Assembly (NCBI GenBank): GCA_002731295.1
Contig: PCBE01000057.1
Location: 10,617 to 22,197 of the forward strand
DNA length: 11,581 nucleotides
DNA from: Acidiferrobacteraceae bacterium
GTDB lineage: Bacteria > Pseudomonadota > Gammaproteobacteria > Arenicellales > UBA868
Direction of reading: 5' to 3'
The notes beneath the pieces were generated by a model, which ran no database searches, was not told the DNA's origin, and was given only the letters and a program-made list of their open reading frames with translations. Shown in pieces: positions 2,959 through 11,581 of the stretch (positions are counted from its first letter, which is position 1; every line of letters starts with the position of its first letter). A program made the position numbers and the translations under genes.

Positions 2959-2964
2959 AGTGAC

Positions 2965-2977
2965 GTCTGATTCAGAC
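2965..2977. repeat. Perfect inverted repeat GTCTGA-T-TCAGAC
   Basis: Six-base arms match exactly around one central T, directly between the putative promoter and the ribosome binding site at 2981-2985. The size and position suit a dimeric-repressor operator. The single-base loop is too tight for an RNA hairpin without opening the inner pairs. No regulator gene is visible in the window. Confidence 0.45.
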
Positions 2978-2980
2978 CCC

Positions 2981-2985
2981 GGGAG
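2981..2985 (+). promoter_or_regulatory. Ribosome binding site GGGAG that sets the dioxygenase start
   Basis: GGGAG lies seven bases before the ATG at 2993. The frame is open back to a GTG at 2960, but those 11 codons would run through the palindrome and the binding site itself, so ATG 2993 is preferred. Confidence 0.65.
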
Positions 2986-2992
2986 TCATGTC

Positions 2993-3781
2993 ATGAAACT
3001 TGATCGCGATCAGATAGAACAATTTAAATCCGAAGGGTATTTATTTATCCCGGACTGTTTCTCGGCTGCAGAAACATCCCGACTGCTCCAGGAATCCCAT
3101 AAGATTTACGCAATGGATCGGGAAGAAGTTGTTCGTGAAAAAAGTGGTGTTGCCCGTACTGCTTTTGCAGCACACACCTACAATGAGGGATTTCGCCTAC
3201 TGGGTGCCCATCCGCGCCTGATTAAACCTGTCATGCAGCTACTCGACGAAGACGTCTACATGCACCAGTATAAAGTCAATGCGAAAGCCCCCTTCGACGG
3301 GGAAGTTTGGCAATGGCACCAGGATTTCGGGACCTGGCACCGTGATGACGAAATGCCCGAACCCCGTGCCATGAACATTGCTGTCTATCTGGACGATGTC
3401 ACGGCAGCCAATGGGCCGCTACTGTTTATACCCAGAAGCCACAAGGATGGCACACTGCCTGCTGGACATGACATCGAAACAACGTCGTACCCGCTATGGA
3501 CCCTGGACAGGGAAACCGTCACCCGATTGGCTGAACAGGGTGGCATCGCAACACCAGTGGGCAAGGCAGGCGCCGTGGTGATGTTCCACTGCAATTTGGT
3601 CCACGCCAGCCCGCCCAATATCAGTCCGTTCGGCCGCACGATCGTATACTTAAGTCTTTGTGCAGTATCGAACCATATCCGTCGTTATAAACGGGCCGAG
3701 TTTATTGCCCATCGGGATTTCACCCCTATCGCTCCACTGGCTGATGACTGTTTGAGCGATCTGGGAGCAGAAACTGCTTAG
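2993..3781 (+). CDS. Phytanoyl-CoA dioxygenase (PhyH) family Fe(II)/2-oxoglutarate oxygenase, EctD-like iron site
   Basis: A 262-residue cytosolic protein. The double-stranded beta-helix facial triad is visible: His109 and Asp111 in WQWHQDFGTWHRDDEMP and the distal His204 in MFHCNLVHASPP, with Arg215 in SPFGRTIVYLS as the likely 2-oxoglutarate carboxylate anchor. The N-terminus (DQIEQFKSEGYLFIPDCFS) is the usual PhyH opening. The first motif closely recalls the ectoine hydroxylase signature (WHSDFETWH.EDGMP), but Ser, Glu and Gly of that signature are Gln110, Gly113 and Glu120 here. The protein is also shorter than EctD (about 300 residues), and no ectABC genes are nearby. It probably hydroxylates a small molecule, using O2 and 2-oxoglutarate; the substrate is unknown. 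The upstream palindromes suggest its own regulation. Confidence 0.88.
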   Translation: MKLDRDQIEQFKSEGYLFIPDCFSAAETSRLLQESHKIYAMDREEVVREKSGVARTAFAAHTYNEGFRLLGAHPRLIKPVMQLLDEDVYMHQYKVNAKAPFDGEVWQWHQDFGTWHRDDEMPEPRAMNIAVYLDDVTAANGPLLFIPRSHKDGTLPAGHDIETTSYPLWTLDRETVTRLAEQGGIATPVGKAGAVVMFHCNLVHASPPNISPFGRTIVYLSLCAVSNHIRRYKRAEFIAHRDFTPIAPLADDCLSDLGAETA

Positions 3782-3896: not shown

Positions 3897-5129
3897 ATGA
3901 CCCACAGACTCAAAATTAACGGCACTCGTTTTCTCGAGGACCTCGATGCACTGAGGGAATTCGGAAAACAGGGCATAGGCGTCGTCCGTCCCGCGTTCTC
4001 AGCACCGGATATCGCATCTCGGCGGTGGCTGGCCGAAAAATTTGAAGCCTGTGGATTGATACCCCGCTGGGACCCGGCTGCAAACCTGTTTGGTCTACCG
4101 CCCCAGTCGGGTCAGCCCGTATTGATCGGTTCCCACTCCGACACCCAGCCCGAGGGCGGCTGGCTGGACGGCGCCTATGGCGTGATCCTCGCTCTCGAGG
4201 TAGCCCGGACCAGTCAGGAGTCCGGCGGTCCTCCGGTTGCTGTTGTTTCATTTCAGGACGAAGAGAGTGCATTCATGCCGCTGAGTGGCAGTCGCTACTT
4301 CAGCCGGTATCTAGACCTTGATACGTTATACGATCTGACCAATGCCGCGGGACAGCGCTATGGTGATGAGGCGACAGCGCTGCCGGAGGTCCAGGGGGCT
4401 GAGCCGCTGGAAACCAACCATTTCAGTCACTTTCTTGAGGCCCATATCGAACAAGGGCCCGTACTGGATCTCGCCAATGAGACCATCGGGGTGGTGGAAA
4501 CAATCGTTGGCAGTCGCCAGTTTGAAGTCGTGATTGAAGGACAACAAAATCATGCCGGCACAACACCGATGTCGCTGAGGCGCGATGCCGTGACCGGATT
4601 TTCAGCTTTTGTTGCCGCTCTGGAGCAGCGTTATACAACTGCCGCTACCCCTCGTTCAGTGTGGACTATTGGTCAGGTACAAGTCCATCCCAATGCACCT
4701 TCTATCGTGCCCGGCAGCGTCAGCTGTTCTGTCCAGATGAGAGACGGCACGTTGAACCAGCTGGACTTGATGTGCGATATCACCCGGGATACAGCACAAG
4801 AGGTTGCGGAGGCGCGAAATCTGAAGATTTCATCAATCCAAAACAAATCTGTTGAGCCGGTCGATATGGATGAACGCGTGATCAGCGCATTCTGCGAGGC
4901 TGCTGATCTAAACACCCCCGGGAAATGGCGCCGTATGCCGTCGGGCGCTCTGCATGATGCCATGAACCTTGCCCCGCACATGCCCACAGGCATGTTGTTT
5001 GTGCCTTCGATCGGCGGTGTCAGCCATGCCTTCGAAGAGGATACTCGCAGGGACGATCTGGTTGCCGGGGTCCAGGTCATGGCCGATACCGTAGCCAAGC
5101 TCGCCACTCAGTCGATTGGGGCCAACTAG
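3897..5129 (+). CDS. Zn-dependent M20 hydrolase: N-carbamoyl-L-amino-acid hydrolase / allantoate amidohydrolase type
   Basis: A 410-residue cytosolic enzyme, a normal length for the HyuC/AllC/beta-ureidopropionase group. Metal-centre residues are His80 and Asp91 ([18 protein letters not shown]), the pair Glu122-Glu123 (FQDEES; catalytic base then ligand), His183 (HIEQGPVL) and His377 ([11 protein letters not shown]). The dimerisation/lid domain shows [15 protein letters not shown], and MPSGALHDA precedes the last ligand, with Leu where Gly is usual (SGAGHDA). Family members hydrolyse N-carbamoyl amino acids, ureidopropionate or allantoate, releasing ammonia and usually CO2. Position next to an amidase/urea-type transporter operon supports a role in organic-nitrogen use, but the exact substrate cannot be told. 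Its TAG stop overlaps the stop of the convergent acyl-CoA synthetase gene by four bases. Confidence 0.9.
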
Positions 5130-6859
5130 GCTGTAGTTGCCTCTTCCAAGCCGAGTTCTTCTACCATCTTTGCCCGCATGATGAACTTTTGCGGCTTACC
5201 GGTCACTGTCATCGGGAATTCCTCGACCGTGTGGACATATCGGGGAATTTTGAAATGTGCGATTTGCCCGTTGCAATAGTTATAGACGTCATCAACCGAC
5301 AACTCAACACCCTGGACCGGAACGATCCAAGCACAGACTTCTTCCCCGTATTTTTCGTCTGGAATTCCGAAAACCTGGACGTCCTGGACCTCGGGATGGC
5401 CGAGTAAAAACTCCTCAATTTCCCGTGGATAGACATTCTCTCCACCTCGAATCAGCATGTCTTTCACTCGCCCGACAATATTGCAGTACCCCTGCGTATC
5501 AATAGTGGCGAGATCACCCGTATGCATCCATCCATCAGCATCAATAGACTCGGAGGTGCGCTCCAGGTCGTCCCAGTAACCCCCCATGACCAGATAACCA
5601 CGGGTATGCAGTTCACCTTGCTCCCCAACCACAACTGTCTCTCCCGACTCATTCACAACCTTGGCTTCGACATGAGGATGAATCGTGCCGACCGTGGATA
5701 CCCGCCGCTCAATCGGGTCGTCTACAGCGCTCTGGAACGAGACTGGACTGGTCTCCGTCATACCGTAGGCGATGGTCATTTCTTCGAGGTGCATTTCCGA
5801 AACGACGCGTTTCATCAGCTCAATTGGACAAGGTGCACCAGCCATAATGCCGGTCCGAAGGGTACGCAGGTCAAACTCACTGATATCCGGTCGATTCACC
5901 ATCGCATTGAACATGGTCGGCACGCCATGAACACCCGTACAGCATTCTTGCTGCATGGTCTGAAGGGTTTGAAGCGGATCGAATCCCTCACCGGGAAACA
6001 CCATCGTGCTACCAGCCGAGACACAGGCGAGGTTGCCTAACACCATACCGAAGCAATGATACAACGGCACCGGAATGCACAGTCGGTCCTTCTGGCTCAA
6101 TCGCATTGAGTTCGCAACAAAACGCGCGTTATTAACCACGTTACGATGCGTCAGGGTCGCGGCCTTGGGTAAACCTGTGGTGCCCGACGTAAACTGCAAG
6201 TTAATTGCGTCGACCGCAGACAGCATCCGCCCGATCGCGTCTAGCCGAGCGCGCTGCCCGGCATTGTCGTGCATCATGATGTCCTTGAAGCGAAACATGC
6301 CTTCGACGTCGTTGTCACCCATGTGGATAATGCTCTTAAGCGATGGAAACCGAACAGCTGAGAGCTGTCCTGGACGGCAACCCCTGAGCTCTGGTGCGAG
6401 ATCTTGTAGCATTTCAAGGTAATTACTGGTCTTGAACGACACAGCAGTGATCAACGCCTTGGCATCAACCTTGGCCAGCGCATACTCAAGTTCAGTCCGC
6501 CGATAGGCCGGATTTATATTTACCAATATGGCGCCGATACGCGCTGTGGCAAACTGAGTAAGCACCCATTCTGGCCTATTGGGTGACCATATACCGACCC
6601 GGTCACCTTTGTATATGCCCAGAGCAAGAAGTCCTGCTGAAAGCTGGTCGACCTTTTGCGCGAGCTGATGCCAGGTCCAGCGCTCGCCGAATTCAGAAAA
6701 GATACACGCATCCCGGTTGCCATGGCTGGACACCGTCCGGGCAAGAAAGCTTGAGATCGTGATTTCTTCAAGGGCGGGATCTGCTACCCCTTTAACATGC
6801 GCTCGATCCGATCCGGAAACAAAAGCAGTCTGCTCTGATCTAGCTTCGACTTCGACCAT
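5126..6859 (-). CDS. AMP-binding acyl-CoA synthetase (ACSF2-like)
   Basis: A 577-residue adenylate-forming enzyme. Core motifs in order: [10 protein letters not shown] (223-232, ATP phosphate loop), YGMTETSP (365-372), HTGDLATID (446-454), [21 protein letters not shown] (463-483) and TVTGKPQK (551-558), with Lys555 as the likely catalytic lysine of the mobile C-terminal domain. It forms acyl-AMP and then acyl-CoA from a carboxylate, ATP and CoA. The C-terminal portion ([20 protein letters not shown]) resembles the medium-chain ACSF2 group, but the chain length accepted is not certain. The start ATG at 6857-6859 has GAAGGGA seven bases upstream. It begins 28 bases after the amidase stop and is the last gene of the transporter operon, which suggests it activates the acid released by the amidase. 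No terminator separates it from the convergent hydrolase gene. Confidence 0.93.
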
Positions 6860-6887: not shown

Positions 6888-8402
6888 CTACATCTGCTTC
6901 CAGTCCCCTAATTGCTCAAAGGCATGCGCAGCCTGATAGATGGTAGATTCACCATAGTGACGGCTGATTAACATCATCCCAACTGGTAGGTCTTCACTCA
7001 TTCCGCAAGGAACCGACATCGCCGGATGTCCTGTAACATCAAACGGGCTGGTGTTTGCAAGCATCTCGAACGCTCTCTGACAATACAAAGCCAGCGACGC
7101 ATCTGGTGGCGGCAATGGCGTCGCTTTCATCGGCAATGTCGGCATCAGGAGAAGATCATACTGGCTGAGCGACTCGTTGTAGGTCTCTTTCAGCTTGCGG
7201 CTCAGGTTCTGTGCCTTGGCATAGTAGTGACCCCGATAATGCCGGAGAAAATATTCACCAACGAACATGCAGATCTTGAGTGTGTCAGACAACTCGTCGG
7301 CACGATTCGGCCAGTTTGAATGGTGGTCGAGCAGGCTGGTCGAGTAAAGACCTTTCCAACCTGTACCGAAGCCATTACCGTTCATCATCTGATTGGTCAG
7401 GCCTTCCAGTGCAATCGGGGTCCAGATGGCCGCTCCCTCGTTGTGCATGGGAATTGAAATATCTTCCACATCTGCTCCCAAATCACGAAGTTTGTCAGCG
7501 GCTGTTCGAACCTTTGCATCAACATCGGACTCTGATTCAGGGCGACCAAATCCCTCCTGCACTACACCAATTTTAAGCCCCCGTACGCCACGACCCAAAG
7601 CTGATGTGTAGTGATCCACTTTGGGTGCATATTGGCGTGGGTCCAGCCCATCTTTTCCCGCAATAACTTCAAGCAGCAGCGCATTGTCGGCGACATTCTG
7701 CGTCATGGGACCAGTATGGTCGATGGTGGTTTCAATAGGCATAACGCCGGTATAAGGGACAAGTCCGTGAGTGGGTTTTAGACCGTAACATCCGCAGTAG
7801 GAAGCAGGCATTCGGATCGATCCACCCTGGTCACCACCCATGGCCATGTCGACTTCACCGGAAGCCACTAGGGCACCGGAGCCTGAAGACGAACCCCCAG
7901 CTGAGTAACCCATCTTGTGGGGGTTGTGACAGGGCCCCGTAGCATTGGTATGACTCCCACCAGAAAGGCAAAAATATTCGCAGTGCGCTTTTCCGACGAT
8001 AGTGCCGCCTGCATCCAGAATACGGGTCACGATAGTGGCATCAATATCGGGAATGTAGCCTTCGAGGGTAGAAGCACCATTCATCATCGGCACACCCGCA
8101 AGACTAATGTTATCTTTAAGGGCAATCGTCTTCCCAGCTAGAGGTCCACGGGGCGCTCCCTTAACTTCGCACTTGATGTACCAGGCATTCAGGGGATTCT
8201 CCTCGGACGACGGCCGATATCCCGGTGTCCTTGGGTAATCGACGGTCGGCAGGTAATCGGGCATCGCGTCAACTATGTCGTAGACTTTCATGGTGTCTTC
8301 CATGACGTCTAGAAACTCTATAATCCGTTCGTCCGAAAGGTGCATTCCGAGATCCAGCGTGATCTCCCTGAGTTGTTCGTGAGTCGGTCTCTTAACAGTC
8401 AT
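6888..8402 (-). CDS. Amidase (amidase-signature family), domain of the fused ORF or separate product from internal ATG
   Basis: From the internal ATG at 8400-8402 this is 504 residues, the usual length of the enantioselective amidases found beside nitrile hydratases in Rhodococcus and Pseudomonas. It opens MTVKRPTHEQLREI. The Ser-cis-Ser-Lys triad is Lys96 (ALKDN), Ser171 (GGSSSGS) and Ser195 (GGDQGGSIRMP); the spacings of 75 and 24 equal those of FAAH (142/217/241). Further matches are ENPLNAWY, GVPMMNGASTLEGY, GLVPYTGVMPIE and PFDVTGHPAMSVP near the C-terminus. It hydrolyses a carboxamide to acid and ammonia in the cytosol; no signal peptide is seen. AGAGAGG lies nine bases upstream of the ATG, making independent translation plausible. 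The order transporter-amidase-acyl-CoA synthetase supports use of an imported amide as nitrogen and carbon source. Confidence 0.85.
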   Translation of the reverse strand: MTVKRPTHEQLREITLDLGMHLSDERIIEFLDVMEDTMKVYDIVDAMPDYLPTVDYPRTPGYRPSSEENPLNAWYIKCEVKGAPRGPLAGKTIALKDNISLAGVPMMNGASTLEGYIPDIDATIVTRILDAGGTIVGKAHCEYFCLSGGSHTNATGPCHNPHKMGYSAGGSSSGSGALVASGEVDMAMGGDQGGSIRMPASYCGCYGLKPTHGLVPYTGVMPIETTIDHTGPMTQNVADNALLLEVIAGKDGLDPRQYAPKVDHYTSALGRGVRGLKIGVVQEGFGRPESESDVDAKVRTAADKLRDLGADVEDISIPMHNEGAAIWTPIALEGLTNQMMNGNGFGTGWKGLYSTSLLDHHSNWPNRADELSDTLKICMFVGEYFLRHYRGHYYAKAQNLSRKLKETYNESLSQYDLLLMPTLPMKATPLPPPDASLALYCQRAFEMLANTSPFDVTGHPAMSVPCGMSEDLPVGMMLISRHYGESTIYQAAHAFEQLGDWKQM

Positions 8403-9230
8403 GTACGTATACCTCTCTTTGCCGGTTGGTGCAGTCGGTAGGGACTGACTGACAGTTGGTGTGTTTTCCCTGGTGGGTTCTGTATGGGAGGTGGAATTTG
8501 ACATCAAGGCTCCAGATCCGAAACCTACAAATTCTTCGATCAGTACCGATTCGGTTGAGTGCCCATCACCGACTTCGCCGATGATATCGCCTTTCTGCAG
8601 CAGCAGTACACGGTCAGACAACGAGGTGACGAACTCAAGGTTCTGCTCAACAAGCACGACCGCTAGCCCTTGCTCTGTATTCAGACGTTTGAGTAGATCA
8701 ATGATGCCGTCAATGATGGATGGCTGTATACCTTCTGTGGGCTCATCTAGGAGCACCAGGTCTGGCTTGCTGATTAAGCAACGTGCGAGGGCAAGAATCT
8801 GCTGCTCACCACCGCTCAAAGCTTCTCCAGAGCGATCGAGCAATGGCTGGAGAGCCGGAAATTCCTGAATGACAGCTTCAATTGCCTCGTGCTCTTCCTC
8901 TGCATGTTCCACAACTCCCATCCTGAGATTGTCGTAGACCGATAGCTGAGGAAATATCCCACGGCCCTGTGGAACATAGCCCAACCCAAGCCGGGATCGT
9001 TCGTATGCCGGTTCGTCAGAAATATCCACCCCGTCGAACTCTATACGACCAGAGGTTGCTGGAACCATGCCCATCAATGTTTTGAGCAAAGTGGTCTTGC
9101 CCATGCCGTTGTGTCCCAACACCCCAACGATCTGACCCTCGCTGACAGAGAAATCAATACCGTGAAGCACGGGTACTCGGCCATAACCTGCATGCAGGTC
9201 CCGGACATTGAGGATCAGCGCTTCACTCAT
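6888..9230 (-). CDS. Fused ORF: LivF/UrtE-type ABC transporter ATPase + amidase-signature hydrolase
   Basis: One uninterrupted 780-codon frame. Residues 1-238 are a complete high-affinity amino-acid/urea transporter ATPase: Walker A GHNGMGKTT (39-47), GYVPQGRGIFPQLSV (84-98), signature LSGGEQQ (138-144), Walker B LVLLDEPT (158-165) and VEQN where other ABC ATPases have His (normal in LivF/UrtE). Residues 239-276 form a Thr/Ser/Pro-rich polar linker. Residues 277-780 are a full-length amidase-signature enzyme (see the separate entry). Start ATG 9228-9230 overlaps the preceding stop (ATGA) and has AGAGGA seven bases upstream, so it is translationally coupled. I know LivF and this amidase as separate proteins of about 235 and 505 residues. 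The fusion may be genuine, may coexist with internal initiation at 8402, or may reflect a lost stop or a sequencing error. Confidence 0.8.
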   Translation of the reverse strand: MSEALILNVRDLHAGYGRVPVLHGIDFSVSEGQIVGVLGHNGMGKTTLLKTLMGMVPATSGRIEFDGVDISDEPAYERSRLGLGYVPQGRGIFPQLSVYDNLRMGVVEHAEEEHEAIEAVIQEFPALQPLLDRSGEALSGGEQQILALARCLISKPDLVLLDEPTEGIQPSIIDGIIDLLKRLNTEQGLAVVLVEQNLEFVTSLSDRVLLLQKGDIIGEVGDGHSTESVLIEEFVGFGSGALMSNSTSHTEPTRENTPTVSQSLPTAPTGKERYTYMTVKRPTHEQLREITLDLGMHLSDERIIEFLDVMEDTMKVYDIVDAMPDYLPTVDYPRTPGYRPSSEENPLNAWYIKCEVKGAPRGPLAGKTIALKDNISLAGVPMMNGASTLEGYIPDIDATIVTRILDAGGTIVGKAHCEYFCLSGGSHTNATGPCHNPHKMGYSAGGSSSGSGALVASGEVDMAMGGDQGGSIRMPASYCGCYGLKPTHGLVPYTGVMPIETTIDHTGPMTQNVADNALLLEVIAGKDGLDPRQYAPKVDHYTSALGRGVRGLKIGVVQEGFGRPESESDVDAKVRTAADKLRDLGADVEDISIPMHNEGAAIWTPIALEGLTNQMMNGNGFGTGWKGLYSTSLLDHHSNWPNRADELSDTLKICMFVGEYFLRHYRGHYYAKAQNLSRKLKETYNESLSQYDLLLMPTLPMKATPLPPPDASLALYCQRAFEMLANTSPFDVTGHPAMSVPCGMSEDLPVGMMLISRHYGESTIYQAAHAFEQLGDWKQM
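8403..8516 (-). other. Linker between ATPase and amidase domains
   Basis: Codons 239-276 of the fused ORF encode a polar stretch dominated by Thr, Ser, Pro, Asn, Glu and Arg (for example SNSTSHTEPTREN and SQSLPTAPTGKER), with no predicted helix core and no stop in this frame. It follows the last ATPase helix (LIEEFVGFG) directly. The composition suits a flexible interdomain linker. The same DNA also contains a Shine-Dalgarno-like AGAGAGG at 8412-8418, as expected if it were once, or still is, a leader for the amidase. Confidence 0.65.
8412..8418 (-). promoter_or_regulatory. Possible internal ribosome binding site for the amidase
   Basis: AGAGAGG on the minus strand stands nine bases before the internal ATG at 8402, where amidase homology begins. 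The anti-Shine-Dalgarno match is GAGG, of moderate strength. If used, a free 504-residue amidase would be made in addition to, or instead of, the fusion. Confidence 0.4.
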
Positions 9231-9952
9231 TGTACTTTCCTCTGGCCAAGATAGATCTCACGAACCTTGTCGTCCGAGGACACTTCATCCATGCCGCCCT
9301 CTATCAAGATTTGTCCTTGGTGAAAGACGGTGACTCTTCTCGCGATCATGCGAATAAACTGCATGTCGTGCTCCACAACGATCATTGTTGCGCTCTTGTT
9401 AATTTCCTGGATGATATCGGCAGTTCGTATGACCTCGTCCGGGGTCATCCCAGCAGTAGGTTCATCCAATATCACCAACCAGGGTTCACCTGCGAGAACC
9501 ATACCCAGTTCAACCTGTTGTCTCTGGCCATGAGCCAGTGAACCGAGTTGTGCTTTCCGAACATCACCCAGTTGAAGTCGCTCAATGACCTCAGAAGTAA
9601 TCACGCGAGCGCGTTTTATGCTGGCCGACTGGCTGGCCGACAACCAAATATTCTCTTCTACGTCTAGACCGTCAAATACATTTGGCACTTGTGTCTTAAT
9701 TCCTACGCCCATTCTCGCTACCTGGTGTGGCTCACTGCCGGTCACATTGAAGTCTCGAATGACAACTTCACCGGCCGTAGGGCTCAACTGCGCGGTAAGA
9801 CACTTAAAAAAAGTGCTTTTACCCGCACCATTTGGACCAATCAGGCAACGTAATTCATTCTCACGAAGAGAAAAATCTACGCGGTCCACTGCCACGACAC
9901 CGCCAAAATGCATTGACAGGCCCCGGGTTTCGAGTACGACTTCACTCCTCAA
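9227..9952 (-). CDS. LivG/UrtD-type ABC transporter ATP-binding protein
   Basis: A 241-residue ATPase counted from the TTG at 9952. Walker A is GPNGAGKS (39-46), Q-loop Gln88, signature LAHGQRQ (139-145), Walker B LVILDEP (159-165), then AGMTPDE and the switch histidine His195 in VEHD. LAHGQ instead of LSGGQ, with AGMT after Walker B and ARRVTVFHQG near the end, is the pattern of UrtD, the urea transporter ATPase, rather than of LivG for branched-chain amino acids. It pairs with the LivF/UrtE-like ATPase to energise the two permeases. The frame is open to a GTG at 9982, but a perfect AAGGAGG sits six bases before TTG 9952, so I prefer that start (11-base overlap with the permease gene). Its TGA overlaps the next ATG. 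Confidence 0.9.
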   Translation of the reverse strand: MRSEVVLETRGLSMHFGGVVAVDRVDFSLRENELRCLIGPNGAGKSTFFKCLTAQLSPTAGEVVIRDFNVTGSEPHQVARMGVGIKTQVPNVFDGLDVEENIWLSASQSASIKRARVITSEVIERLQLGDVRKAQLGSLAHGQRQQVELGMVLAGEPWLVILDEPTAGMTPDEVIRTADIIQEINKSATMIVVEHDMQFIRMIARRVTVFHQGQILIEGGMDEVSSDDKVREIYLGQRKVQ

Positions 9953-11003
9953 ATGTGGCCTCCTTGAATCGGGATCGCCCACGACGCCTTATTCTTTTCG
10001 CGGAGCGGGCTGTCATGCGACGGGACCGCCTTCGGTCCCATAGCTGCACCAGTGAGGGAACAATACCTTTGGGAACAACCAGTACAAAAATAATCAGGAC
10101 GAGACCAAGGAAAAAATTGATATTGACCACAGCCTGACGACCAAGAAAAGAAGTGAGGTAAAACAGGACCAAGGCCCCGAGAATCGGCCCAATTAGCGTA
10201 CCTCGCCCCCCAATAATGACCCAGATAATAGCCAGGGCAGCGTTATACAGATTGTAAACATCAGGGGTAATTCGTCCGATTGAATTTGCAAACATGACGC
10301 CGGCCAGTCCCGCGATGGCGCCGCCCACAGTAAACATTCCTAATTTATACAGGCGAATGTCGTAACCCAAAAGCTCCGAACGAATTTCATTCTCCCTGAT
10401 AGAAATACAAACTCGACCAAAATGGGACTTTGTCAGCCATACACAAAGGAAATACGCGCCAAGCAATGAAACCATGGCGACATAGAACACCTGCTCGGGA
10501 AACAGAAACTGATTCGCATCCCAAGGATAATTAATTGGCGGCACGTTGATCCCGTTAAAACCGCCAAGTTTTGCGATCCCAATCTTATACTCAGGACCAG
10601 AGGTCCTCCTGATGACGCTGTAGAGAATGAGCGTTACTGTCAGGGTGATCACGGCCAGGTAGACGTCGCTCAAACGTCCGTAGAACATAAAGTAGCCTAG
10701 AATGGCCGCAGCGGCGGCGGCAACTAGTATCGCGAGAACAATTGCACTTGTACTACCTCCAAAGTTCAGTGCCGCGATAGCGTACGCATAAGCGCCGATA
10801 CCAAAAAATGCTGTTTGTCCAAAACAGAGAATTCCCCCAAAACCCCAGATCAGTCCTAGGCTCAACGCCAGTATGGCAAGACTGACCGCAGTAGTCAGAC
10901 TGATAATTTCAAAAAGATCAAGAGTCTGTGGTGCGCCAAATAAGATAATCAGCCCGACTATCCCGATCGAGATAAGCGCGTTCGTATCCCGAGATCGTTT
11001 CAC
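9942..11003 (-). CDS. LivM/UrtC-type ABC transporter permease
   Basis: A 353-residue inner-membrane protein with about nine to ten hydrophobic segments (for example residues 11-24, 34-58, 86-107, 113-131, 172-190, 222-240, 255-266, 270-287, 297-311). The blocks GFGGILCFGQTAFFGIGAYA (54-73), the ATPase-contacting loop RENEIRSELLGYDIRLYK (203-220), GAIAGLAGVMF (228-238) and IIGGRGTLIGPILGA (263-277) are typical of LivM/UrtC. It forms the translocation pore with the LivH/UrtB-like partner. The start is GTG at 11001-11003, overlapping the upstream TGA by four bases (GTGA) with a weak GAAG upstream, so translation is probably coupled. The C-terminal tail after PKGIVPSLVQLW is very basic (14 Arg/Lys among the last 30 residues), which is unusual for the family; it should lie in the cytoplasm. 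Confidence 0.92.
   Translation of the reverse strand: MKRSRDTNALISIGIVGLIILFGAPQTLDLFEIISLTTAVSLAILALSLGLIWGFGGILCFGQTAFFGIGAYAYAIAALNFGGSTSAIVLAILVAAAAAAILGYFMFYGRLSDVYLAVITLTVTLILYSVIRRTSGPEYKIGIAKLGGFNGINVPPINYPWDANQFLFPEQVFYVAMVSLLGAYFLCVWLTKSHFGRVCISIRENEIRSELLGYDIRLYKLGMFTVGGAIAGLAGVMFANSIGRITPDVYNLYNAALAIIWVIIGGRGTLIGPILGALVLFYLTSFLGRQAVVNINFFLGLVLIIFVLVVPKGIVPSLVQLWDRRRSRRMTARSAKRIRRRGRSRFKEATFEE
9959..9965 (-). promoter_or_regulatory. Strong ribosome binding site AAGGAGG that sets a TTG start
   Basis: On the minus strand AAGGAGG lies inside the last codons of the upstream permease gene and ends six bases before TTG at 9952-9950. The competing in-frame GTG at 9982 has only AAGG about seven bases upstream and would add ten unconserved residues. 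Confidence 0.65.
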
Positions 11004-11581
11004 AGACTTCGCTTGAAGAAACGGCCAGTGATACCTTGGGGCATCAACCGAAGCAGAACGATCGCGAGCAGGAGCAGTGCCACTTCACCCATAGTTGGAC
11101 CGATTATAAAACTGACGATACCGTTTACCCCACCTAACAAAATCGAGGCCGAAGCAGTACCTGCCAGGATCGCAGTGCCACCAGAAATGACCGTAATGAA
11201 TGCCTTTCCGATATAAATTGCCCCAATCGTTGGCAGGACACCGGTAATGGGTGCCAGCAATCCGCCAGCGAGACCTGACAACGCAGAACCAATCCCAAAT
11301 GTCATGGAGTAGACGCGCTGTGTGCTAATACCCAGCGCAGCTGCCATATCAGCTGCCTGCATGGTTCCACGGGCAACCAGTCCCAGCTTCGTGTAACGCA
11401 ACAAAAGATATACCAGCAGGACCAGGATGATCGCCACAAAAATTAGGAAAACTTCGTACCCGCTGGAACTGAACTCGCCAATGGAAATTGCACCAAACGG
11501 TGGAGAAATTGTCGTAGCCGTCTGGGCTCCGAATATGGTGGTAATAAGTCCGATAAAAAGTAGGCTCAGTCCCCATGTTGC
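11000..11581 (-). CDS. LivH/UrtB-type ABC transporter permease, C-terminal part (5' end outside window)
   Basis: The minus-strand frame is open from the right edge to the TGA at 11000-11002 and gives 193 residues; the start lies beyond the window. A GTG at 11437 is inside the protein, not its start, because membrane and periplasmic-loop sequence continues upstream of it (GLSLLFIGLITTIFGA and PPFGAISIGEF). The block LGLVARGTMQAADMAAALGIS is the cytoplasmic EAA-like coupling loop, followed by SALSGLAGGLLAP, GGTAILAGT and a C-terminal PQGITGRFFKRSL that closely matches LivH/UrtB endings. It partners the LivM/UrtC-type permease encoded just downstream. The matching periplasmic binding protein gene (LivK/UrtA) would be expected further right and is not in the window. 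Confidence 0.92.
   Translation of the reverse strand, partial: ATWGLSLLFIGLITTIFGAQTATTISPPFGAISIGEFSSSGYEVFLIFVAIILVLLVYLLLRYTKLGLVARGTMQAADMAAALGISTQRVYSMTFGIGSALSGLAGGLLAPITGVLPTIGAIYIGKAFITVISGGTAILAGTASASILLGGVNGIVSFIIGPTMGEVALLLLAIVLLRLMPQGITGRFFKRSL

Follow-up and report, generated by a model that had tools for sequence, protein, structure and literature searches.

RhAmidase of Rhodococcus sp. N-771 (PDB 3a1k, and 3a1i with benzamide; NF005565/PRK07235) is a separate chain of 521 aa, and the enzyme is a dimer. Importers of the UrtABCDE or HAAT type are encoded in the A-B-C-D-E order of a binding protein, two permeases and two ATPases, and each holds one D-type and one E-type ATPase. 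The coupling of an importer to an enzyme acting on its cargo has often been proposed and is, to our knowledge, seldom encoded in a single gene. In unfused operons of Tistrella mobilis (pTM2), Paracoccus methylovorus (p1), Rhizobium rhizogenes and Pseudomonas baltica, the same five transporter genes as in our locus are followed by the same amidase, the ATPase and amidase being separate. An ANTAR regulator comes after the amidase in four of the 14 split loci shown (L059, L060, L068 and L133), and nitrile hydratase genes lie near the Tistrella locus.

Genes within genes, with in-frame internal starts and an experimentally shown short product, are described for Rpn, where this product is the C-terminal part, and for the type I-D CRISPR Cascade (PMC10327210). 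As in those systems, one frame would here give two nested products; unlike them, the predicted short product is a whole enzyme from a formerly separate gene.

Here we describe a locus, within a window of 11,581 nucleotides (the whole stretch of DNA analysed), in which the amidase chain, unlike RhAmidase, is joined to an ABC ATPase. The transporter genes keep the order of UrtABCDE, from which the locus differs in that the E ATPase bears the amidase and that flotillin and acyl-CoA ligase genes flank the transporter. A catabolic enzyme would thus be covalently part of an ABC importer motor, in many bacteria. A literature search covering titles and the starts of abstracts, with most subscription journals outside its range, showed no description of an ABC ATPase–amidase fusion or of such a gene set among the papers listed.

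An ABC ATPase continues in frame into an amidase

6888..9230, minus strand: ATPase–amidase fusion gene, a single frame of 780 aa (84.5 kDa) with its ATG at 9230
8517..9230, minus strand: UrtE/LivF-like ABC ATPase domain, residues 1-238
8403..8516, minus strand: flexible Thr/Ser/Pro-rich linker, residues 239-276
6888..8402, minus strand: RhAmidase-type amidase-signature enzyme, residues 277-780, predicted 54.8 kDa if made alone
5126..6859, minus strand: acyl-CoA ligase (AMP-binding), the next gene, 28 bases past the fusion stop
9227..9982, minus strand: UrtD/LivG-like ABC ATPase that presumably pairs with the fused one
9942..11003, minus strand: UrtC-like permease
11000..11581, minus strand: UrtB-like permease, truncated at the window end (whole at L136:13617-14486)
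L136:15872-17569, beyond the window: flotillin/SPFH protein with Band_7 and Flot domains

The fusion gene overlaps the preceding gene by four bases (9227-9230), and a plus-strand reading of 6888..9230 meets many stops; the first-pass annotation had given no strand. The Pfam domains ABC_tran (residues 22-165) and Amidase (355-764) both score well over cut-off, and residues 277-780 align to positions 1-506 of the 506-position NCBIfam amidase profile NF005565 with 831.5 bits against a cut-off of 545. The Lys-Ser-Ser triad K372/S447/S471 (amidase numbering K96/S171/S195) is invariant across all 345 aligned fused proteins, the window protein included. The same holds for Walker A K45/T47, signature S139/G140 and Walker B D162/E163. 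Structure comparison reveals that the amidase half shares the RhAmidase fold from its N-terminus on, residue 278 pairing with residue 2 of RhAmidase 3a1k. Because amidase matches fill the structure comparison list, the ATPase half was judged from its sequence. By profile score, triad and fold, the amidase half is an RhAmidase-type amidase-signature enzyme with predicted amidase activity.

The two halves are connected by a linker of 38 residues, 47% of them Thr, Ser or Pro. Its length and sequence vary among relatives, with the frame kept, and its dN/dS is 0.49-0.82 versus 0.03-0.10 for the domains (where computable). The AlphaFold model of the whole fusion, built from a 66-row alignment, has a mean pLDDT of 91, and its sole segment of at least three residues with pLDDT below 50 is 238-276, i.e. 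the linker; an earlier model from 25 similar rows (pLDDT 58) was discarded in favour of this one. The in-frame fusion of two intact halves and the Thr/Ser/Pro-rich linker, both read from the window by the first-pass annotation, are therefore borne out.

Origin and distribution of the fusion

The architecture is no one-off: three protein searches, of the kind that the annotation had called for, gave at least 344 distinct fused proteins among the matches listed. The best 120 of 7999 protein matches all carry both domains; as best matches to fused queries, these lists of 120 do not measure frequency. In other assemblies, close relatives at 96%, 88% and 87% identity also carry the in-frame fusion. 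The first-pass annotation had named a stop codon behind the ATPase in such relatives as grounds for abandoning the fusion; we looked for one and found none in these relatives, so this objection falls. The fusion is real and conserved.

We examined 24 fused genes as DNA, Sulfitobacter plasmid records included. All 24 clade members retaining the upstream ATPase are in frame, counts that are not independent, as the 24 rows are mutually related; one of them, L012, which lies on a contig of 3003 bases, contains a stop codon close to the amidase end. The loci were gathered from amidase matches above 400 bits starting within five residues of the amidase N-terminus, a set that passes over eight short loci in favour of longer copies, leaves L018 and L021 outside (43-44% identity, stop codons between genes) and contains near-copies (the L055/L069 pair and two R. 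rhizogenes loci). The tree of these loci places the origin of the fusion in a single event (support 97/98), with three ATPase-less amidases nested within the fused clade that seem to have been released from it. From these sequences, the ancestor seems to have been an operon in which ATPase and amidase were still neighbouring but separate genes, and the intervening stop codon seems to have been lost once, long ago. Within the order, 12 of 109 genomes have the fused gene (G002 via a cut contig). With two candidates scored per genome, it was found in the window's own genome only, both in a sample of 398 genomes from the phylum (E up to 1e-100) and in one of 369 genomes from the class (E up to 1e-240).

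Flotillin and an acyl-CoA ligase accompany the fusion

A Peripla_BP_6 binding protein, two BPD_transp_2 permeases and two ABC_tran ATPases lie side by side, the composition of a HAAT-type importer, and the fused ATPase is the sole E-type ATPase seen in the fused gene sets. Among NCBIfam models, the transporter parts match Urt models best, with each score under its cut-off: 278.4 of 494.8 bits (TIGR03669) and 172.9 of 492.75 (TIGR03407) for the binding protein, 225.8 of 374.25 and 187.2 of 250.3 for the UrtB-like permease, 264.1 of 575.55 and 179.1 of 296.2 for the UrtC-like permease, 246.3 of 304.1 for UrtD, and 262.8 of 285.8 for UrtE (TIGR03410) on the fused ATPase half. With all listed Urt scores below cut-off, we rejected a urea transporter. 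AmiC-like genes lie upstream in some loci, both fused and unfused.

The ligase matches NF009233 with 833.1 bits (cut-off 832), and the flotillin scores 111.5 bits for PF15975 (cut-off 27) and 56.1 bits for PF01145 (cut-off 23.6). The order flotillin, binding protein, two permeases, ATPase, ATPase–amidase and acyl-CoA ligase is common to all 21 testable fused loci, the other three of the 24 (L011, L012 and L062) having too little flank for flotillin. Flotillin was found in 0/12 testable split loci, and an acyl-CoA ligase of the fused-locus type in 0/13, short flanks having removed 11 and 10 of the 23 split rows from the respective tests; L061, a split locus omitted from the ligase test, has an AMP-binding gene of 29% identity cut by the contig end. 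This shared gene order may reflect one ancestral event.

Neither gene is specific to the system when taken alone, a reading that we rejected since both occur in genomes lacking the fusion. Flotillin homologues are present in 35 of the 398 phylum-sample genomes, the window's own included; four flotillin neighbourhoods examined contain no such gene set, with weak ATPase or ligase matches kilobases away in two. Ligase homologues (49-58% identity) occur in seven genomes from the order that lack the fused gene. The specific feature is flotillin and ligase together beside the fusion, and nothing less.

A conserved putative second start inside the fusion gene

8400..8402, minus strand: internal ATG (Met277), ancestral amidase start and putative second translation start
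8412..8418, minus strand: Shine-Dalgarno-like AGAGAGG, 9 bases upstream of the internal ATG (-9.2 kcal/mol)

The internal ATG at 8402, pointed out by the first-pass annotation, is present in all 24 fused DNA rows. A clear ribosome-binding site precedes it in 21; it is weak in L058 (-3.5), L129 (-2.9) and L062 (-2.3). Raw Shine-Dalgarno strength was dropped as stand-alone proof of internal initiation because equal or nearly equal scores occur at other conserved Met codons (Met462 -7.17, with 21/23 at or below -5; Met383 -5.42; Met615 -5.49); the internal ATG ranks strongest within its gene in just 4/24 rows. We substituted a synonymous-recoding null with controls, under which the internal site is stronger than predicted (z -5.1, 16 representatives), compared with z -1.7 to +2.5 for 15 other conserved Met columns. 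The site beats this null although identity to the window drops to 58% in the clade, and in G007 and G009 positions -14..-9 are invariant despite near-saturated synonymous sites (domain pS 0.73-0.91). The residue itself is Met, Met shifted by one codon, or Val in 341/345 fused proteins; in four proteins of one lineage the Met is lost and residue 277 is Lys. The strength of the site is about equal to that of true amidase starts (means of -7.4 for split and -6.9 for solo genes, leaving out 4/23 split and 4/27 solo rows that lack a start codon at the corresponding position).

The gene thus combines a conserved in-frame start codon with a ribosome-binding site exceeding coding constraint, the three weak rows aside, as expected of a gene within a gene. 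The internal ATG is the surviving old start of the formerly separate amidase, and the sequence pattern indicates that the gene probably makes both the 84.5-kDa fusion and the 54.8-kDa free amidase. Fusion and internal initiation, set out as alternatives in the first-pass annotation, are both supported at once by the sequence comparisons.

Proposed mechanism and alternatives

As the likely reading, we propose that this gene provides an Urt-like (HAAT-type) amide importer with its E-type ATPase, to which the amidase is permanently tethered, and that internal initiation also yields free amidase. That both proteins are made is something we infer, as are the substrate class, membrane tethering, CoA trapping and the flotillin role; the amide substrate is guessed from the neighbouring genes. 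The Peripla_BP_6 binding protein would capture a carboxamide, which the two permeases and two ATPases would import. The amidase, held at the importer's inner mouth by the disordered linker, would convert it to a carboxylic acid and ammonia, and the ligase of the adjoining gene would trap this acid by turning it into an acyl-CoA. The flotillin encoded with these genes may concentrate the complex in a patch of membrane. These two proteins, which the first-pass annotation did not mention, would extend the import-coupled hydrolysis that it suggested. Should an importer contain a single E-type ATPase, one tethered amidase would sit on it, and the free form could supply extra catalytic copies or, if the enzyme is dimeric like RhAmidase, the partner protomer. 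More speculatively, and in our view doubtfully, the system could be a self-assembling import-and-degrade complex, in which a flotillin-gathered importer bears one tethered:free amidase pair and passes the acid to the ligase. If so, uptake, hydrolysis and CoA trapping would form one channelled membrane step, whose stoichiometry would be fixed by two start sites within one gene.

The full-length fusion could be the only product, with the internal ATG and ribosome-binding site being relics or an inter-domain elongation pause. The site does descend from a true start, similar sites occur at other Mets of the same genes and three rows have a weak one; nonetheless, its excess over the synonymous null down to 58% identity, the unchanged -14..-9 stretch in G007 and G009 and the start-codon-like behaviour of the residue make this account improbable. 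The converse, that the free amidase is the working enzyme and that the amidase tail on the transporter is tolerated and idle, would agree with the likeness of the internal site to true starts and with the three seemingly released amidases. A useless fusion should, however, often show stops or frameshifts in so fast-evolving a linker, and all 24 ATPase-retaining clade members are in frame; moreover, the fused ATPase has no second E-type ATPase beside it in the gene sets seen. We regard this as very unlikely.

We hold it equally unlikely that the amidase half is a substrate sensor gating the ATPase (trans-inhibition) rather than a degrading enzyme. In some ABC importers the ATPase does bear a regulatory domain at its C-terminus, which lends the idea some plausibility; it is countered by the invariant catalytic triad and by the position, next in gene order, of a ligase able to use the acid product. 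An assembly or base-calling error that erased the stop codon could be imagined for a draft genome split over 126 contigs (2.5 Mb, 81.5% complete). We rejected it, its probability being negligible, because fused orthologues occur in independent assemblies, Sulfitobacter plasmid records among them, and the low domain dN/dS also speaks against it. The lost stop codon considered in the first-pass annotation thus survives as an apparent single event in a two-gene ancestor and fails as a sequencing error.

Returning to the reading with both a tethered and a free amidase, frame and internal start are both conserved, and the two forms can therefore be compared by small changes within one gene. The constant companionship of flotillin and acyl-CoA ligase in the examined loci suggests a compact bacterial metabolon. 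Where they are telling, source names cover one half of the protein only ('amidase', rarely UrtE or amide transporter ATP-binding protein), and either the importer or the enzyme role is therefore lost from metabolic reconstructions.

The fusion is kept in frame

The ATPase and the amidase are joined in frame in 24 of the 24 clade members with an upstream ATPase, which bears out the fusion proposed by the first-pass annotation. The database search it had suggested, for ABC_tran + Amidase proteins of about 780 residues, finds such proteins in number. Against 5.8 billion proteins, the best 120 of 7999 matches to the window fusion carry both domains (772–869 aa), as do 120 of 120 matches listed for a Sulfitobacter fused query and likewise 120 of 120 for a second fused-protein query; pooling the three queries gives at least 344 distinct fused proteins among the matches listed. 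Their database names, where telling, are mostly "amidase"; UrtE, HAAT ATP-binding protein and indoleacetamide hydrolase are rare. In the Sulfitobacter sp. THAF37 and S. alexandrii plasmid records the fused gene is labelled plain amidase. The gene is present in 12 of the 109 genomes of the window's order, and, at the thresholds used, an even sampling of the phylum (398 genomes) and of the class (369 genomes) shows it only in the window's own genome; its distribution is thus patchy.

Architecture, catalytic residues and linker are directly observed. Relative to the nearest orthologue (genome G003), dN/dS is 0.09–0.10 in both domains, and relative to G007 it is 0.03 in the ATPase domain, a rough value given a dS of 2.7; synonymous saturation in the other comparisons restricts the domain estimates to these. 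In the linker dN/dS is 0.49–0.82 against orthologues. The gap from the end of the ATPase match to the amidase match spans 37 to 101 codons in the 24 fused rows, and the linker region 42 to 139 residues in 121 proteins. Judged from these alignments, the frame across the fusion is under selection. One fused gene, L012 (genome G002, on a 3003-base contig), contains a stop near position 2034, close to the amidase end, with similarity continuing beyond it, reflecting either sequence error or decay.

A retained start inside the fused gene

The ATG at the ancestral amidase start, Met277, is kept in 24 of 24 fused DNA rows. Of 345 proteins, 329 have Met at this position; in 9 the Met lies one codon earlier, 3 have Val and 4 have Lys. 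The four Lys proteins (P0037, P0042, P0075 and P0080) form one lineage and have in common a Met eight residues upstream, to which their start has possibly shifted.

We scored ribosome sites as the anti-Shine-Dalgarno duplex energy at −18 to −5. The mean at Met277 in fused rows is −6.6 kcal/mol (−5 or lower in 21 of 24), compared with −7.4 at true amidase starts in split loci (19 rows), −6.9 in solo loci (23 rows), and −2.7 at 689 in-frame ATGs elsewhere in these fused genes (−5 or lower in 147). A sliding profile from −90 to +120 bases peaks at the Met277 codon, with a lesser rise to −4.1 about 38 codons after it. Shine-Dalgarno strength by itself fails as proof of an internal start: Met462 (−7.17) is stronger than Met277 while Met383 (−5.4) and Met615 (−5.5) come near, all three scoring strongly because of the residues encoded upstream. 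Moreover, the Met277 ATG is the gene's strongest single site in only 4 of 24 fused genes, and the internal site is weak in three rows (L058, L129 and L062).

The discriminating null is random synonymous recoding using each gene's own codons. An equally low energy at Met277 arose in 0 of 300 recodings (24 rows), 0 of 2000 (16 representatives) and 0 of 500 (a further run); the z value there is −5.1, against −1.7 to +2.5 at 15 other conserved Met columns. The eight residues before Met277 show a conservation of 0.30, the lowest among the conserved Met columns compared, and genomes G007 and G009 are identical to the window at −14 to −9 despite near-saturated synonymous sites. With the ATG retained and its site exceeding the synonymous null, the fused gene therefore most likely yields two products, an 84.5-kDa fusion and a 54.8-kDa free amidase. 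Internal initiation at 8402 had been put forward as an alternative to the fusion; the common frame and the recoding result support both, and only their mutual exclusion is abandoned.

Origin of the fusion

The amidase tree was built from 74 rows of the gathered loci. In 24 of them, the window among them, the amidase is fused; in 23 (split) a distinct ATPase gene lies upstream; and in 27 (solo) no ATPase gene is adjacent. The careful tree unites all 24 fused rows with three solo amidases, L019, L020 and L130, in a single clade (support 97/98); constraining the fused rows as a clade without these three is rejected (p-AU 0.024). The ATPase-half tree agrees, placing the 24 fused rows on one side (93/93). 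These stand-alone amidases are nested in the fused clade, and their genomes (G055, G042 and G484) also hold a fused copy; a single release of the amidase from the fusion seems to account for them. On these trees, a single fusion and a single later release explain the gathered loci.

Split operons are found in Rhizobium, Pseudomonas, Paracoccus, Tistrella and a record titled Solirubrobacterales; two of them, L055 and L069, carry a tandem pair of amidase genes, the second of which has diverged. Around the amidases of loci L025 (genome G199) and L026 (G076), the open frame runs to 1072 and 1122 aa, respectively, with the amidase match beginning only at residue 273–276; these are possibly other extensions or mere stop-free sequence.

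The gene set around the fusion

Seven genes lie on one strand, presumably as one operon: flotillin, binding protein, two permeases, two ATPases (one amidase-fused) and an acyl-CoA ligase. Those flanking the transporter core on the window's contig (L136) are:

L136:14524-15816, beyond the window edge, Peripla_BP_6 binding protein
L136:15872-17569, just outside the window, flotillin with Band_7 and Flot domains
window 6859..5126, same strand as the fused gene, acyl-CoA ligase

Flotillin, as first gene of the set, and ligase occupy the same positions in 21 of 21 fused loci with enough flank; the flank of the other 3 of 24 is too short. Among split loci with enough flank, flotillin is found in 0 of 12 and the fused-set ligase in 0 of 13. 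Immediately downstream of its amidase, split locus L061 has a different AMP-binding gene (L061:7865-9259, 29% identity), and an acyl-CoA ligase may have been recruited there independently; the locus stands outside the ligase count because the contig ends inside this gene. In split locus L060 an AMP-binding gene (28% identity) lies far upstream. An ANTAR regulator follows the amidase in 4 of 14 split loci shown (L059, L060, L068 and L133), nitrile hydratase genes lie close by in the Tistrella split locus, and AmiC-like genes are present in some fused and some split loci.

Away from the fusion, in genomes of the order lacking the fused gene, a flotillin match at E < 1e-85 occurs only in G058, where the contig stops right after it, and similar ligases occur in 7. 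Elsewhere, flotillins are common, with homologues in 35 of 398 genomes of the phylum sample (the window's own included); none of four neighbourhoods read around non-fusion flotillins holds such a gene set.

Proposed mechanism

Based on family knowledge, we propose that the transporter would import a carboxamide, which the tethered RhAmidase-type enzyme would cleave to an acid and ammonia, the ligase then converting the acid into its acyl-CoA. The separate AMP-binding gene in the corresponding position of L061 is consistent with this scheme. The free amidase could add enzyme copies or, since RhAmidase is a dimer, may pair with the tethered copy. A role for flotillin is a guess drawn from what flotillins do. 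The transporter is Urt-like, yet misses every listed Urt model cut-off. The window ligase scores 833.1 bits against NF009233 (fatty acid CoA ligase family; cut-off 832) and the Sulfitobacter ligase 802.3 bits, under that cut-off.

The ATPase half, the amidase half and the importer type are known; among the papers listed by our searches of an open-access library, we found no description of a covalent ATPase-amidase with a conserved internal start in a flotillin-importer-ligase set. This conserved two-product design makes the old question of importer-enzyme coupling a simple genetic test.

Convergent to the operon lie a hydantoinase/carbamoylase-family M20 hydrolase (window 3897-5129, plus strand) and a PhyH dioxygenase (window 2960-3781, plus strand), both kept nearby in G003 and G007. 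A further amidase-signature gene (L136:519-1724, plus strand; 401 aa, PF01425) lies beyond the window's other end.
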